Source: Lachnospiraceae bacterium (GTDB taxonomy: Bacteria; Bacillota; Clostridia; Lachnospirales; Lachnospiraceae). From it: 64,000 nucleotides of DNA. The position numbers and the translations under genes were made by a program. Shown one piece after another: positions 35,459 to 42,993 of this stretch. Position 1 is the first letter of the stretch. Each line of letters opens with the position of its first letter. Under the pieces are notes generated by a model. That model made no database searches, had not been told where the DNA came from, and worked only from the letters and a program-made list of their open reading frames with translations. The stretch lies in assembly GCA_017503735.1 (NCBI GenBank), contig JAFVSN010000004.1, forward strand, positions 83,995-147,994, read 5' to 3'.

Positions 35459-36637
35459 TTAGTGGTGGAACAAACGAATTCCGGTGAAGCACATTACCAT
35501 GTTATGCTTGTCCGCTGCTTCGATCACAAGATCGTCTCTAACGGAACCGCCCGGCTCTGCAATATACTTAACGCCACTGCGGAATGCACGCTCAATGTTG
35601 TCGGAGAACGGGAAGAATGCGTCGGAACCGAGAGCTACGTCGGTCATGGTATCAAGCCAAGCACGCTTTTCTTCTCTGGTAAATACTTCCGGCTTCTCCT
35701 TAAAGATACGCTCCCAAGCACCGTCAGCCAATACATCCATGTAATCCTCACCGATGTAAAGATCAATTGCATTGTCGCGGTCTGCTCTGCCGATTTTATC
35801 TAAGAACGGAAGGTTCAATACCTTCGGGTTCTGGCGAAGATACCAGTTATCTGCCTTGCTGCCTGCAAGTCTGGTACAGTGAATTCTGGACTGCTGTCCC
35901 GCACCGATACCGATTGCCTGACCACCCTTTACATAGCACACGGAGTTGGACTGGGTGTACTTTAAGGTAATAAGGGAAATGATAAGGTCAATACGAGCAG
36001 ACTCCGGTAAATCCTTGTTTGCGGTAACGAAGTTGGAAAGGAGCTCATCGTCTACCTTTAACTCATTTCTGCCCTGCTCGAAGGTAATTCCGTAAACTTC
36101 CTTGCGCTCAAGCGGCTTCGGAACATAATTCGGGTCAATCTGAATTACGTTGTATCCGCCCTTCTTCTTCTCCTTTAAGATAGCGAGAGCCTCCGGAGTA
36201 TAGCCCGGAGCGATAACGCCGTCGGAAACCTCACGCTTAATGATGCGTGCGGTGCATTCGTCACAAACATCGGAAAGAGAAATAAAATCACCGAAGGAAG
36301 ACATACGGTCAGCACCTCTTGCTCTTGCATAAGCACTTGCCATCGGGGTAAGCTCTCCCATGTCATCTACCCAGTAAATCTTTCTCTCCACTTCGGTAAG
36401 CGGAAGACCTACTGCTGCACCGGCCGGGGAAACATGTTTAAAGGAAGTTGCAGCCGGAAGACCGGTTGCCTTCTTTAACTCGTTTACCAACTGCCAGCCG
36501 TTAAATGCATCTAAGAAATTGATATAGCCCGGTCTGCCGTTTAATACGGTAATCGGGAGTTCACTGCCGTCTTCCATGAAAATTCTGGACGGCTTCTGAT
36601 TCGGGTTACATCCGTACTTTAATTCGAATTCGTTCAT
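35459..36637 (-). CDS. purH: AICAR transformylase (stand-alone PurH transformylase domain)
   Basis: Formylates AICAR using 10-formyltetrahydrofolate in the next-to-last purine step. 392 residues containing only the transformylase part; the N-terminal IMP cyclohydrolase domain of usual bifunctional PurH is absent. Visible signatures are [11 protein letters not shown] near the start, [12 protein letters not shown] (Lys-His catalytic region, about residues 66-77), [22 protein letters not shown] (about 232-253) and the end [19 protein letters not shown]. The missing cyclohydrolase function is encoded 58 bp upstream. It starts at ATG with GGAGG upstream. Confidence 0.94.
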
Positions 36638-36695
36638 AATGTGCCTCCTGTCAATCTCTGCTTTCTTAAACTTTCTATCCTGTATTCGGAACGTC

Positions 36696-37409
36696 TTACT
36701 TGTTCTTATTTACAATTCTGGTTTCGGTAGTACCGGTTACGATATCAATGTAGCGAACAAACAAGGAAACCTTATTCTCTTCGTTTAAGTTCGTCCACAA
36801 AAGCTCGGTGTAAGCATCGATATCATCTACAGTATCCACAAGCTTCGGCTCACCCTCAAAGCTCGGAAGCGGATTACCGTCTCCCATGTAAGTATGGATA
36901 AAATGTCCCTCGCCCGCCTTCGGATCATTGTATGCAAAGTTGTAACGATGGCAGCTGCTCGGATCACCGTTGTTGCTCTTTAAGATAGACATTGCATAGT
37001 TATATGCACCGGCTCCCGTATGTAAAATACCGGAAATACGAGGAGTGTAGTTCGGAGCATCCGGCTCGAACTCTCTGGTACGAAGCGCCTGCTCAAAGGT
37101 CTGCTGCTTATCCATCAATTCATAGATGGTGTCGGTCTGGTCACCGTTGGTAACGATGGTCTTGTTGCCAAGAACGCGTACCGGAGCATAGATAATTAAG
37201 CTCGGATCACTTAATTTGCTCGGATCAAAGGCTTCCGTACGGATGCCGTCACCTTCGGTAACAAACACACGATTTCTGCTGTTCTCACTTCTACCCATGA
37301 TAAAATACGCGGTCACTGCATACTTTCCGTTCGGAGACTTACCGATAATAATACCTCTGCCCGGATAAGAATTGCTGCTCAGTTCCTTTTGAATGGATTT
37401 CATTTCCAT
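36696..37409 (-). CDS. PurO-type IMP cyclohydrolase
   Basis: A 237-residue homologue of the archaeal-type IMP cyclohydrolase family (PF07826): residues 11-45 [29 protein letters not shown], the central [19 protein letters not shown] region and the later [25 protein letters not shown]. It should close FAICAR to IMP, the last step of purine synthesis. Together with the downstream transformylase it replaces bifunctional PurH. The gap of 58 bp and shared strand indicate an operon. AGAGG precedes the ATG. The match is by recognition of the family's sequence pattern. Confidence 0.88.
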
Positions 37410-37586: not shown

Positions 37587-38408
37587 TTATTTTTTCATTT
37601 CGCGGCTGCGATAATTTCGTATTCCCTGTAAAATCAATTGCCGCTTTTGTTTTGCAAGCTCCACATCCATTTCCGGTACCCCTTCCAACCGGTAGTGAAT
37701 TCCCAGTTCCTTGTATTTGGAAGATCCCATCGTATGATACGGCAATACTTCTACTGCCTGCAAATTGGAAAACCTGCCGATGTATTCTCCCAGACGAATC
37801 AACTCTTCTTCCTCGTCGGTATATCCCGGAACCGCCACTCTGCGAACCCAGACCGGAACATTTCTTTCCTCTAAAAACTCCAAGAACGCAAACACCGCTT
37901 CATTGGAATGGCCGGTCAGACTACGATGGACTTCCGTATCCATGTGCTTGATATCCAGCAACACCAAATCCGTCACAGCCAAAAGATCTTCAAACTCCTT
38001 TAGCGACATTCCTGCACCGTAGTTTCTGATTTCTTCATGGATTCCGTTCTGCGCTTTTTCCCATCCGTTTGAATTTTTCCGAAAAGAAAACAAAATACCG
38101 GAGGTATCCAGGCAGGTAGAAATACCCTTCTTCTTTGCCTTTTGAAACAATTCCGTTACAAAATCCGACTGAGAAAGCGGTTCTCCTCCGGAGACCGTAA
38201 TTCCGCCGTTTCTGTAATAGGTTTGATTCCGAAGAAACTTCTCAATCAGCTCTTCGGAAGACATCAAAGTCCCCCGTTTCTCTGCCCAGGTATCCGGGTT
38301 ATGACAGTAAGCACACCGCATCGGACACCCTTGCAGAAAAATAACCATCCGGAGCCCCGGACCGTCTACCGTTCCGAAACTTTCCACAGAATGAATCCAT
38401 CCCTGCAT
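37587..38408 (-). CDS. pflA: Pyruvate formate-lyase activating enzyme
   Basis: Radical-SAM glycyl-radical activase of 273 residues that abstracts the glycyl hydrogen of pyruvate formate-lyase. The 4Fe-4S motif CxxxCxxC is GCPMRCAYCHNPDTW (Cys near residues 29-36), followed by TVSGGEPLSQ. Its ATG overlaps the stop of the glycyl-radical gene (TAATG), so translation is coupled. A stretch of about 35 residues in the middle (around SFRKNSNGWEKAQNGIHEEI) looks longer than in typical PflA. Conserved order pflB, glycyl-radical gene, pflA on one strand. Confidence 0.94.
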   Translation of the reverse strand: MQGWIHSVESFGTVDGPGLRMVIFLQGCPMRCAYCHNPDTWAEKRGTLMSSEELIEKFLRNQTYYRNGGITVSGGEPLSQSDFVTELFQKAKKKGISTCLDTSGILFSFRKNSNGWEKAQNGIHEEIRNYGAGMSLKEFEDLLAVTDLVLLDIKHMDTEVHRSLTGHSNEAVFAFLEFLEERNVPVWVRRVAVPGYTDEEEELIRLGEYIGRFSNLQAVEVLPYHTMGSSKYKELGIHYRLEGVPEMDVELAKQKRQLILQGIRNYRSREMKK

Positions 38409-38650
38409 TAAATCACCTCATGGAAGGTACGAGAAATCACCTCGTCCTGCTGTTCTTTTGTAAGCTTATTAAAGTTTACCGCATAGCCGGACACACGTAC
38501 CGTAAGCTGTGGGTACTGTTCCGGATGCTTCTGTGCATCCAAAAGCATTTCGCGGTTTAACACATTCACATTTAAATGATGACCGCCTTGCTCTACGTAT
38601 CCGTCCAATAACGCTACCAAATTATCGATTTGATTCAAATCTGCTGCCAT
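38408..38650 (-). CDS. grcA: Free-standing glycyl-radical domain of pyruvate formate-lyase (GrcA-like)
   Basis: An 80-residue protein that equals the C-terminal end of pyruvate formate-lyase: [20 protein letters not shown] then [12 protein letters not shown], with Gly55 as the expected radical site. Its start, ATG 38650, has GAAAGGGGC about 7 bases upstream and lies 14 bp after the stop of the large subunit gene. E. coli GrcA is a comparable free subunit, but there it repairs a full-length enzyme; here the large subunit lacks this domain, so the small protein is presumably essential. It overlaps pflA by one base. Confidence 0.88.
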
Positions 38651-38664
38651 AGGTCTGCCCCTTT

Positions 38665-40761
38665 CTATTCTGAGGTGCCGTAGTCCGGTTCTGCCGGCTG
38701 ACACGCCGGACCGCAACACCCCTCACCAAGTTCCAGTGCCAAATCACCGGAAAGCACAACACTTTCTTTACCAAGTGCTCCCGGAATTACCGTAAAGGTA
38801 TTGGAAATGCCGTCCTGCGCATCCCGGAACGGAAGCTTAGATACAGACGCCAAAGATGCAATCGCACCGAGCTTGTCTCTTCCGTGCATCGGATTTGCTC
38901 CCGGTGCAAACGGTTCTCCTGCTTTTCTTCCGTCCGGTGTAGAACCGGTATTCTTACCGTACACTACATTAGACGTAATGGTAAGAATGGAAGTGGTCGG
39001 AATACCACCGCGATAAGTGTGGTTTCCCTTAATATACTGCATAAACGTGTGAACTACTTCTCTTGCGATTTCATCCACGCGGTCATCATCGTTTCCGTAC
39101 TTCGGGAAATCACCTTCCACTTCATAATCCACCGCAATACCGTCGGCATCACGGATTACCTTTACTTTTGCATACTTAATTGCAGAGAGGGAGTCTGCCA
39201 CAACGGAAAGTCCCGCAATACCGGTAGCAAACCAACGGGTCACTTTCTTATCATGAAGCGCCATCTGCAATTTTTCATAACAATACTTGTCATGCATAAA
39301 GTGAATAATATTTAAGGTGTTCACATATACACGGGCAAGCCATTTCATCATCTCGTTGTACTTATGCATTACCTCGTCGTAATCCAAATACTCGGAAGTA
39401 ATCGGTCGATATTCCGGTGCTACCTGCTTTTTCGTAATCTCGTCCACACCACCGTTGATGGCATAAAGCAGACACTTTGCAAGGTTTGCTCTTGCTCCGA
39501 AGAACTGCATTTCCTTTCCGACACGCATGGAGGACACACAACATGCAATCGCGTAATCGTCGCCGTGGGTTACACGCATCAAATCGTCATTCTCGTACTG
39601 AACCGAAGAAGACTCAATGGAAACCTTTGCGCAGAACCGCTTAAATGCCTGCGGAAGTCTGGTGGACCAAAGCACGGTCATATTCGGTTCCGGTGCCGCC
39701 CCCAGATTCTGTAACGTATGCAGATAACGGAAAGACATCTTTGTTACAAGCGGTCTTCCGTCGATTCCGATACCGCCGATGGACTCCGTCACCCAGGTCG
39801 GGTCGCCGGAGAACAATGCATTGTATTCCGGTGTTCTTGCAAACTTCACCAGACGAAGTTTCATAATGAAATGGTCTACCATTTCCTGTATTTCATCTTC
39901 TGTAAAGGTTCCTTCCGCAAGGTCACGCTGTGCATAGATATCAAGAAACGTGGAGGTTCTTCCGAGAGACATCGCCGCACCGTTCTGTTCCTTTACCGCA
40001 GCAAGATAGCCGAAATACAACCACTGGATTGCCTCCTGTACATTCTTTGCCGGTCTTCCGATATCAAAACCGTAAATCTCACCAAGTTTTTTCAAATCCT
40101 TTAGGGCACGAATCTGCTCGGACAGTTCTTCACGGTCACGAATTACGTCGGAATACATAATCGTACGGGTGGAATTCTTCTGATCTTCCTTATCTTCAAT
40201 CAAACGATCTACACCGTAAAGTGCCACACGTCTGTAATCGCCGATGATCCGTCCTCTGCCGTAAGCATCCGGAAGTCCCGTGATAATATGACTGGAACGG
40301 CATGCACGCATCTCCGGGGTATACGCATCAAATACACCCGCATTATGGGTTTTACGATGTATGGTAAAAAACTCTTCCACCTGCGGGTCAAGGGTATAAC
40401 CGTTGTCGCTGCAAGCCTTTGCCGCCATACGGATTCCGCCGTACGGTTGCAAAGAACGCTTAAACGGCTTGTCCGTCTGAAATCCTACAATTTTTTCTTT
40501 CTCTTTATCTAAATAGCCCGGACCATGGGAAGTAATGGTTGAAATCACGCTGGTGTCCATCTCCAGCACACCACCGGCTTCCAGCTCTTTCTTCGACAAC
40601 TCCAGTACCTGTTCCCAAAGTGCCTTTGTCGCCTCCGTCGGCCCTGCCAGAAAGGATTCATCACCTTCGTAAGAATCGTAATTTTTTTGAATGAAGTCTC
40701 TTGTGTTTATTTCCCGTTCCCAAACACCTGATTTAAAACTTCTCCATTCTTCGCGCATCAT
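38665..40761 (-). CDS. pflB: Pyruvate formate-lyase catalytic subunit lacking the glycyl-radical domain
   Basis: Converts pyruvate and CoA to acetyl-CoA and formate under anaerobic conditions. The 698 residues carry the catalytic Cys407-Cys408 (IACCVSSM) and the usual large barrel, but the family normally continues about 60 residues further to a glycyl radical. Here the sequence leaves the PFL pattern after [12 protein letters not shown] and ends in a Cys-rich tail (GCCGPAC at about residues 681-687). The glycyl-radical domain is encoded next as a separate gene. The frame is different and about 34 residues longer, so a simple frameshift does not explain it. AAAGGAGAG precedes the ATG. Confidence 0.92.
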
Positions 40762-42554: not shown

Positions 42555-42737
42555 TTAGGCATTAATCTTCTTTCGATTTCTCTTCACAACAGCACACTGA
42601 AAGGCTTTTACCATTGCATCGGAAAGTTCCTCGCAATCCTCATCAAAAACAATCGGTACTTTCTTTGCTTCTTCTACTTCTCTAAGCTGTTCTTCCGTAG
42701 GTTTTTGGCCCCTTTTAATAGTAAAGGTCTTGATCAT
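42555..42737 (-). CDS. BrnT-associated antitoxin (BrnA-like position)
   Basis: A 60-residue protein starting MIKTFTIKRGQKPTEEQLREVEEAKK, with a charged helix and a basic C-terminus (VKRNRKKINA). Its start lies inside the end of the BrnT-type gene (23-bp overlap), after AAAGGAGG. The position and size fit the antitoxin that usually follows brnT, but it lacks an evident ribbon-helix-helix motif, so the BrnA label is by context. The overlap suggests tight coupling of the two products. Confidence 0.72.
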   Translation of the reverse strand: MIKTFTIKRGQKPTEEQLREVEEAKKVPIVFDEDCEELSDAMVKAFQCAVVKRNRKKINA

Positions 42738-42993
42738 AATAAAGCCTCCTTTCCTTCTCTGTTGCAAGTCTTGCGGATATTAAACGTATTACTTCACGTC
42801 TTTCAGTAAATACCACAAACAAAATATCTCCTACTTTCCCAATTGCTATATATCGATCTTCTTCCGTACTATGCTCAAAATCAAACATCTCAATATAATC
42901 CGGGTCATCAAAAACATGTGCCGCCGTTTCAAAAGAAATCCGATGCTTTACTTTGTTAATACTATTTTTCTCTTCATCCCACTCAAATATCAC
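42715..42993 (-). CDS. brnT: BrnT-family ribonuclease toxin
   Basis: A 92-residue protein matching the BrnT family throughout: FEWDEEKNSINKVKHRISFETAAHVFDD at residues 3-30, then EEDRYIAIGKVGDILFVVFTERREVIRLISAR. BrnT is a RelE-like ribonuclease kept in check by a cognate antitoxin that also represses the operon. The antitoxin gene overlaps its 3' end. The ATG has AGGGAGGTATAG 6-7 bases upstream. Confidence 0.92.
   Translation of the reverse strand: MIFEWDEEKNSINKVKHRISFETAAHVFDDPDYIEMFDFEHSTEEDRYIAIGKVGDILFVVFTERREVIRLISARLATEKERRLYYDQDLYY

Follow-up and report, generated by a model that had tools for sequence, protein, structure and literature searches.

Mixed-acid fermentation depends centrally on pyruvate formate-lyase (PFL), an enzyme whose radical does not survive oxygen. 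In the window analysed here, a stretch of 64,000 nucleotides from a Lachnospiraceae bacterium (GCA_017503735.1), the enzyme is encoded in two pieces, the larger of which ends in a short tail bearing cysteines. The locus raises the question of whether the two proteins make up one working enzyme and what the tail contributes to it. Genes for the PFL core, a glycyl-radical protein and an activase lie in a row on the minus strand, from 40761 to 37587, with the following features:

38665..40761, minus strand: gene for the PFL large (core) subunit, without the glycyl-radical loop; 698 residues, PF02901 at 735 bits
39538..39543, minus strand: catalytic cysteine pair C407-C408 (IACCVSS), invariant in 51 of 51 aligned large subunits
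38668..38766, minus strand: 33-residue tail after the LGK of the large subunit; AF2 pLDDT <50 for residues 649-698
38701..38718, minus strand: Cys motif CCGPAC of the tail (C682, C683, C687), read from the sequence
38651..38664, minus strand: 14-nt gap with the ribosome-binding site AAAGGGG; 14 nt in 8 of 8 genus members
38408..38650, minus strand: gene for the glycyl-radical subunit (GrcA3), 80 residues; PF01228 profile positions 50-106
38486-38488, minus strand: glycine of RVSGY, G55 of the glycyl-radical subunit
37587..38408, minus strand: gene for the PFL-activating radical SAM enzyme; TIGR02493 at 287.5 bits, cut-off 231.75

Organization of the locus

This arrangement of a 698-residue core, an 80-residue radical protein and an adjoining activase confirms the original prediction of a PFL divided into a catalytic and a glycyl-radical protein. 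The predicted junction was equally accurate: the large frame stops at TAG, and 14 nt further on, behind its own ribosome-binding site, the 80-residue frame begins with ATG in a different frame, while the activase start overlaps the radical-subunit stop by 1 nt (TAATG). The last PFL motif of the core is LGK (residues 663-665), after which we count 33 more residues, close to the offset of about 34 that had been claimed.

At the profile level the two proteins complement each other. The large subunit scores 1097.5 bits against TIGR01255 (above the cut-off of 994.2) over profile positions 2-667 of 744, and the small protein picks up the same profile at 665; the Pfam Gly_radical domain is likewise cut at position 49, with positions 1-49 in the large protein and 50-106 in the small one. 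The original prediction had the large chain diverge before the radical domain. This holds for the radical loop, which is absent from the large chain and present on a separate chain, making the enzyme a split variant and not a one-chain PFL; it does not hold for the domain as Pfam draws it, since the split point falls inside that domain, between the LGK motif and the helix NLVALLDGY. The small protein, scanned with an additional codon at its start, passes the cut-off of NCBIfam NF038360 (GrcA3; 162.3 bits, cut-off 158) and falls short of that of TIGR04365 (GrcA/YfiD; 98.4 bits, cut-off 170), covering only positions 66-124 of the latter model. RVSGY occurs in the small protein only, which would make this protein the target of the activase, as had been proposed. 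By alignment, C407-C408 of the large subunit correspond to C418/C419 of E. coli, given as the catalytic cysteine pair in one study (PMC12338860).

Inheritance and spread of the split

The split is common to 8 of the 10 genus genomes, the window's own included, and the search of relatives for split and tail together, which the original prediction had called for, found the 14-nt gap and the Cys-Cys pair in 8 of 8 split loci, with the third cysteine in the window only. A recent frameshift, a pseudogene or an assembly error as the source of the split, to which we give practically no chance, is refuted by these relatives, in which the ribosome site and the frames are kept, and by a junction that is kept across a clade with record names from several phyla; that a plain frameshift could not account for the junction had been foreseen. 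An intact homologue of this gene type was not found among the 10 genus genomes. In one of the two genomes without the split (G003), the sole domain match is a protein resembling anaerobic ribonucleotide reductase; the other (G009) has a PFL that is fused and belongs to a separate type (DGISNTQT), together with a fragment of this type at a contig edge. This second, fused type (DGISNTQT, PEKEEYANFTIRVSGY) was also seen in the same family at L136-L140, L194, L003 and L019, in some genomes alongside the split PFL.

Beyond the genus, the GrcA3 cut-off was passed in 101 of 299 genomes drawn as an even sample of the family. Of the matches listed above the cut-off, three are in reading frames some 750 residues long (G260, G105, G083), and the rest in frames of 80-198 residues. 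A first pass over the 80 named loci closest to the large protein gave 68 split, 5 fused and 7 unclassified loci; since these are the top matches to a split query, the split clade is over-represented among them. Their record titles include Lachnospiraceae, Oscillospiraceae, Erysipelotrichaceae, Spirochaetes, Collinsella and Melainabacteria among others, phylum names being taken from these titles and many of the loci being metagenome bins. In a sample of the phylum, 57 of 199 genomes passed the PFL cut-off, and among those 57 the window's own genome alone had the split form. On a quick tree of 143 PFL cores the fused and split states need two changes, a pattern that one ancient split and one later re-fusion would fit. 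Five fused loci (L073, L078, L091, L122, L125) are nested inside the split clade and are probably natural re-fusions of a split PFL.

A working subunit or a spare part

We judge it reasonably probable that the two proteins form a two-part working PFL whose Cys tail is one form of a module nearly always present in split PFLs. Both halves, the catalytic cysteine pair, the RVSGY loop and the activase are all intact and adjacent. Barrel, substrate site and Cys407-Cys408 would come from the large protein; the radical-carrying glycine would come from the 80-residue protein, which would slot into the large one; and the adjacent activase, if it acts as PFL biochemistry leads one to expect, would generate the radical on the small protein.

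The name of the small protein's family in NCBIfam, autonomous glycyl radical cofactor GrcA3, points to a different reading, that of a spare part which, like E. coli GrcA/YfiD, repairs an oxygen-cleaved PFL. E. coli GrcA/YfiD (TIGR04365, 6owr) is indeed similar in being a separate protein with a PFL-type radical loop that completes a PFL core; it differs in mending an intact but oxygen-cleaved enzyme and, according to one report, in having a disordered N-terminal half of 60 residues (PMC8683613). Against such a role in the window, the large gene stops ahead of the radical loop, the GrcA score lies under its cut-off and covers only the C-terminal half of the model, and a search of the window's own genome, which is 94.6% complete, found only split halves and no intact PFL. 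The spare-part reading is therefore very improbable. With no intact PFL found in this genome for it to mend, the small protein is expected to act as a working subunit, and the difference from E. coli GrcA claimed in the original prediction stands. Among 50 split-bearing genomes of the family, a full-length, one-frame PFL above the cut-off was found in five (G292, G140, G127, G273, G304) and in none of the other 45. The small protein belongs to GrcA3 by score; its gene context, and the failure to find an intact PFL beside it, indicate an obligate subunit, contrary to what the family name implies.

A third gene in the long gaps

In many split loci the core and radical-subunit genes are separated by long gaps, and these contain a third gene of about 50-100 residues. 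One copy is:

L062:5074-5307, plus strand: third gene of Lacrimispora amygdalina, also present in the gaps of 69 other loci

The protein has the form MxxxxxIDDLVxMLDxxMxxGxGHxNVxV...DCxxxxLACxVPTLxxGLD. Over 45 aligned rows, His26 and Cys55 are invariant and Cys62 nearly so. Its first 33 columns align to GrcA3 with an hhalign probability of 96% (E 2.7e-9), showing that the front of the third protein is a copy of the docking helix-strand of the radical domain; the consensus has no RVSGY loop. The C-terminal part bears a Cys motif (consensus LACxVPTLxxGLD) like that found in the tail of the large subunit at other loci. The gene is under purifying selection, with pN below pS in 40 of 40 equal-length pairs (median ratio 0.23).

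Full matches to the third protein (E under 1e-10) occur, among the matches listed, in 52 of 200 family genomes; the window's own genome gave none. No third protein was found in 56 genomes with a fused PFL, where ten weak matches to the model all fall on the fused enzyme's own helix-strand, and in the stretches examined at the five re-fused loci the fused enzyme itself was the sole notable match. With five examples of the protein, no Pfam family reached its cut-off and the NCBIfam match was limited to the GrcA3-like front; no PDB chain matched below E 0.2. A search confined to open-access papers in PMC found nothing on a split PFL or on the third protein. A protein of this kind, a copy of the radical domain's dock without the glycine, was not found described and is apparently new, which suggests that a small conserved gene is missing from Pfam and NCBIfam.

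Cys tail and third gene exclude each other

Classification of 163 loci gave 151 split, 5 fused and 7 that contig edges or pattern misses made unclassifiable and that were left out of the tally (L063, L080, L123, L126, L156, L207, L216). The split loci follow an either-or rule: 79 of the 151 have a Cys tail and no third gene, 70 have a third gene and a Cys-less tail, none has both and two have neither (L054, L121), so that exactly one form is present in 149. With repeats removed, the counts are 64 with a Cys tail, 66 with a third gene, none with both and two with neither. Twenty loci were fetched after the rule had been formed; all 18 that could be classified obey it, including 16 of 16 previously unseen ones, where L199, L204 and L207 are identical to L068, L060 and L156, L217 is close to L087, and some of the remaining loci were already known to give no third-gene match. 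Each of the 64 distinct Cys tails has at least two cysteines; none of the 132 distinct radical subunits has any. The two loci with neither form, L054 and L121 (Collinsella aerofaciens), have a split PFL all the same and are natural test cases for the role of the Cys module.

Among the 107 split pairs compared first, with 6 loci skipped, the tails had also sorted by gap length, with a gap of at most 115 bp behind 54 of 54 Cys tails and of at least 220 bp behind 51 of 53 Cys-less tails. We replaced this tally by that of the third gene because one locus (L212) breaks the gap rule and not the gene rule, its Cys tail being followed by a gap of 383 bp that lacks a third gene. We considered and rejected the idea that terminators within long gaps cause the correlation between gap and tail, the long gap containing the third gene instead; of 60 of the 62 long-gap loci, 7 had a hairpin-plus-T site, as did 1 of the 71 short-gap loci.

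The company that Cys tails mostly keep with short gaps (54 of 54) could be taken to mean that the cysteine codons act in cis, slowing the ribosome beside the small gene and so setting its translation. The third gene accounts for the gap effect, L212 keeps its Cys tail despite the 383-bp gap, and conservation extends to residues other than cysteine, all of which leaves this explanation scarcely credible. On the tree the two forms interchange often, with 15 changes for the cysteines and 13 for the gap. The starred branches provide four independent pairs of correlated change; over 200 pairings an average of 3.9 ran in the same sense and 0 in the opposite one, giving a sign test with a median p of 0.125, too few pairs for significance.

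Is the tail a form of the third protein?

Direct similarity between the two forms was found for part of the tails. A model of the third protein's C-terminal part matched 29 of 69 Cys tails at E<=0.01, compared with 1 of 69 shuffled tails, and none of 65 Cys-less tails at E<=0.1. The other side of this result is that 36 of the 69 Cys tails, the window's included, do not match the model even at E<=0.1; by its sequence alone the window's tail scores E 7.8 against the module of the third protein. Its assignment would follow from its position, its cysteine pair and phylogeny, not from its own sequence score, and the neighbouring tails of L048 and L164 join it on a weakly supported branch. With this qualification, there appears to be one conserved module that occurs in two forms, Cys tail and third protein; the fused form keeps the cysteines and is without the helix-strand. 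We found no description of this interchange between Cys tail and third protein, which is apparently new.

The number and spacing of cysteines vary among tails (CC, CxCC, CxxxxC, CTDCx6C); for a redox pair, a single unvarying motif would be the neater fit. In the genus, pN/pS is 0.40 in the tail and 0.034 in the core, so the tail is the looser part.

Possible roles of the Cys module

Any proposal for the module has to accommodate the finding that E. coli tPFL, which has no tail, is together with YfiD as active as the wild type once activated, as reported in PMC8683613; the module is therefore not needed for the chemistry itself. We propose, as a tentative reading with well under an even chance of being right, that it is a mobile thiol arm serving an open active site. 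A removable radical subunit would leave the active site open when it is absent or under activation; the arm's cysteine pair, by analogy, could keep or re-reduce the catalytic pair and yield when the radical subunit docks. As a protein of its own the module would dock through the copied helix-strand. A module fused to the core needs no dock, which fits the loss of the helix-strand; the fusion of the two genes is an argument that module and core are in contact. As at least two cysteines are found in every distinct Cys tail and none in the radical subunits, the simplest guess is that the module performs a thiol task on the side of the core.

The analogy is with class I ribonucleotide reductase, in which a C-terminal cysteine pair re-reduces the catalytic cysteines. 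Like the large PFL subunit, E. coli NrdA is an enzyme with catalytic cysteines and a cysteine pair at its C-terminus (CESGACKI); it has no homology to the split PFL, and the comparison is one of analogy only. Tails such as CNSGAC (L110) resemble the CESGAC of NrdA, a likeness so short that it may be convergence or chance.

A more elaborate and somewhat less likely version, which we regard as possible, makes the split PFL a three-part machine. The module would be a stand-in, derived from a duplicated docking helix and strand of the radical domain in which the radical glycine disappeared and a cysteine pair arose; it would hold the radical subunit's place on the barrel, guard or re-reduce the catalytic cysteine pair, and be swapped out on activation, having become a permanent arm in the window's lineage.

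Doubtful, in our estimate, is a role of the module as a tether recruiting the radical subunit or the activase in place of the E. coli recognition parts. For E. coli, PMC8683613 describes good binding of YfiD as relying on PFL residues 696-733 and on YfiD residues 1-60; with PFL cut at 695, YfiD binding was not measurable and the radical was 32-fold less. The natural split has neither of these recognition parts, so recognition must be arranged differently. A tether would also agree with the third protein copying exactly the helix-strand, and with an AF2 model of the large subunit plus the third protein whose aligned range extends into PFL's own helix-strand region. It sits poorly with a fused form that retains the cysteines yet loses the helix-strand, and with radical subunits that offer no cysteine to pair with (0 of 132).

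Structures were predicted with AF2. When the window's large subunit is modelled, its tail comes out disordered (pLDDT <50 for residues 649-698), as a mobile arm would. The large-plus-third model has a mean pLDDT of 68.6, with 57-79 for the helix and strand and less than 50 for the third protein's Cys part, which is unplaced. Aligned to E. coli PFL, the model ends at its residue 727 and at residue 714 of the 1cm5 chain, in line with the helix-strand of the third protein taking the usual place on the barrel; this is weak evidence, as the alignment gives range ends only and AF2 has learned PFL. The AF2 models gave no support for the tail or the third protein's Cys part lying near the active site.

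The original prediction had the tail either hold the small protein, which a tether would do, or bind metal. We consider it unlikely that the module binds a metal (Zn or Fe) in a structural or sensing site. The invariant His26 and Cys55 and near-invariant Cys62 of the third protein would suit such a site, as would the two or three cysteines in tails of the 107-pair set. The histidine is not found in the fused form, the spacing varies, and many tails have two cysteines only.

Relation to known systems and significance

The window's enzyme shares with PflB (TIGR01255; E. coli 1h16) the barrel, the vicinal catalytic cysteine pair, the RVSGY radical loop and a dedicated activase; it differs from the single E. 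coli chain in that its large chain ends after LGK and a Cys tail, the radical domain being separate. The best matches of the large subunit were the PDB entries 38la and 38lb ('Formate acetyltransferase'), for which we found no paper; the small protein matches neither chain. The chain of 38lb continues beyond LGK into GECDMCEMK and looks like another split large subunit. On these grounds the original prediction is not supported where it calls the arrangement new. The chain of 38lb carries cysteines in its tail and gives no match to the radical domain; the split is widespread in the family and, taken by itself, already known from 38lb and from the small protein's place in NCBIfam as GrcA3.

Taken as a two-part enzyme, the locus suggests that in many gut anaerobes the spare-part principle seen in E. 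coli GrcA has turned into the enzyme's working form, and it presents the radical-bearing part as a cheap, exchangeable subunit in a natural enzyme. GrcA3, on this view, would be better annotated as a subunit of PFL. The Cys module, which was not found where PFL is fused, gives a way to study how a glycyl-radical active site stays safe while it is open.

Neighbouring genes

Directly after the activase, at 35459-37409 on the minus strand of the window, lie genes for an IMP cyclohydrolase-like protein (PF07826) and, separately, for an AICARFT protein (PF01808), which places purine steps that use formyl groups next to an enzyme that makes formate. On the other side of the locus, a gene for a BrnT-type ribonuclease toxin (PF04365) is found at 42715-42993 on the minus strand, with a small open reading frame downstream of it (42555-42767) that is possibly its antitoxin.
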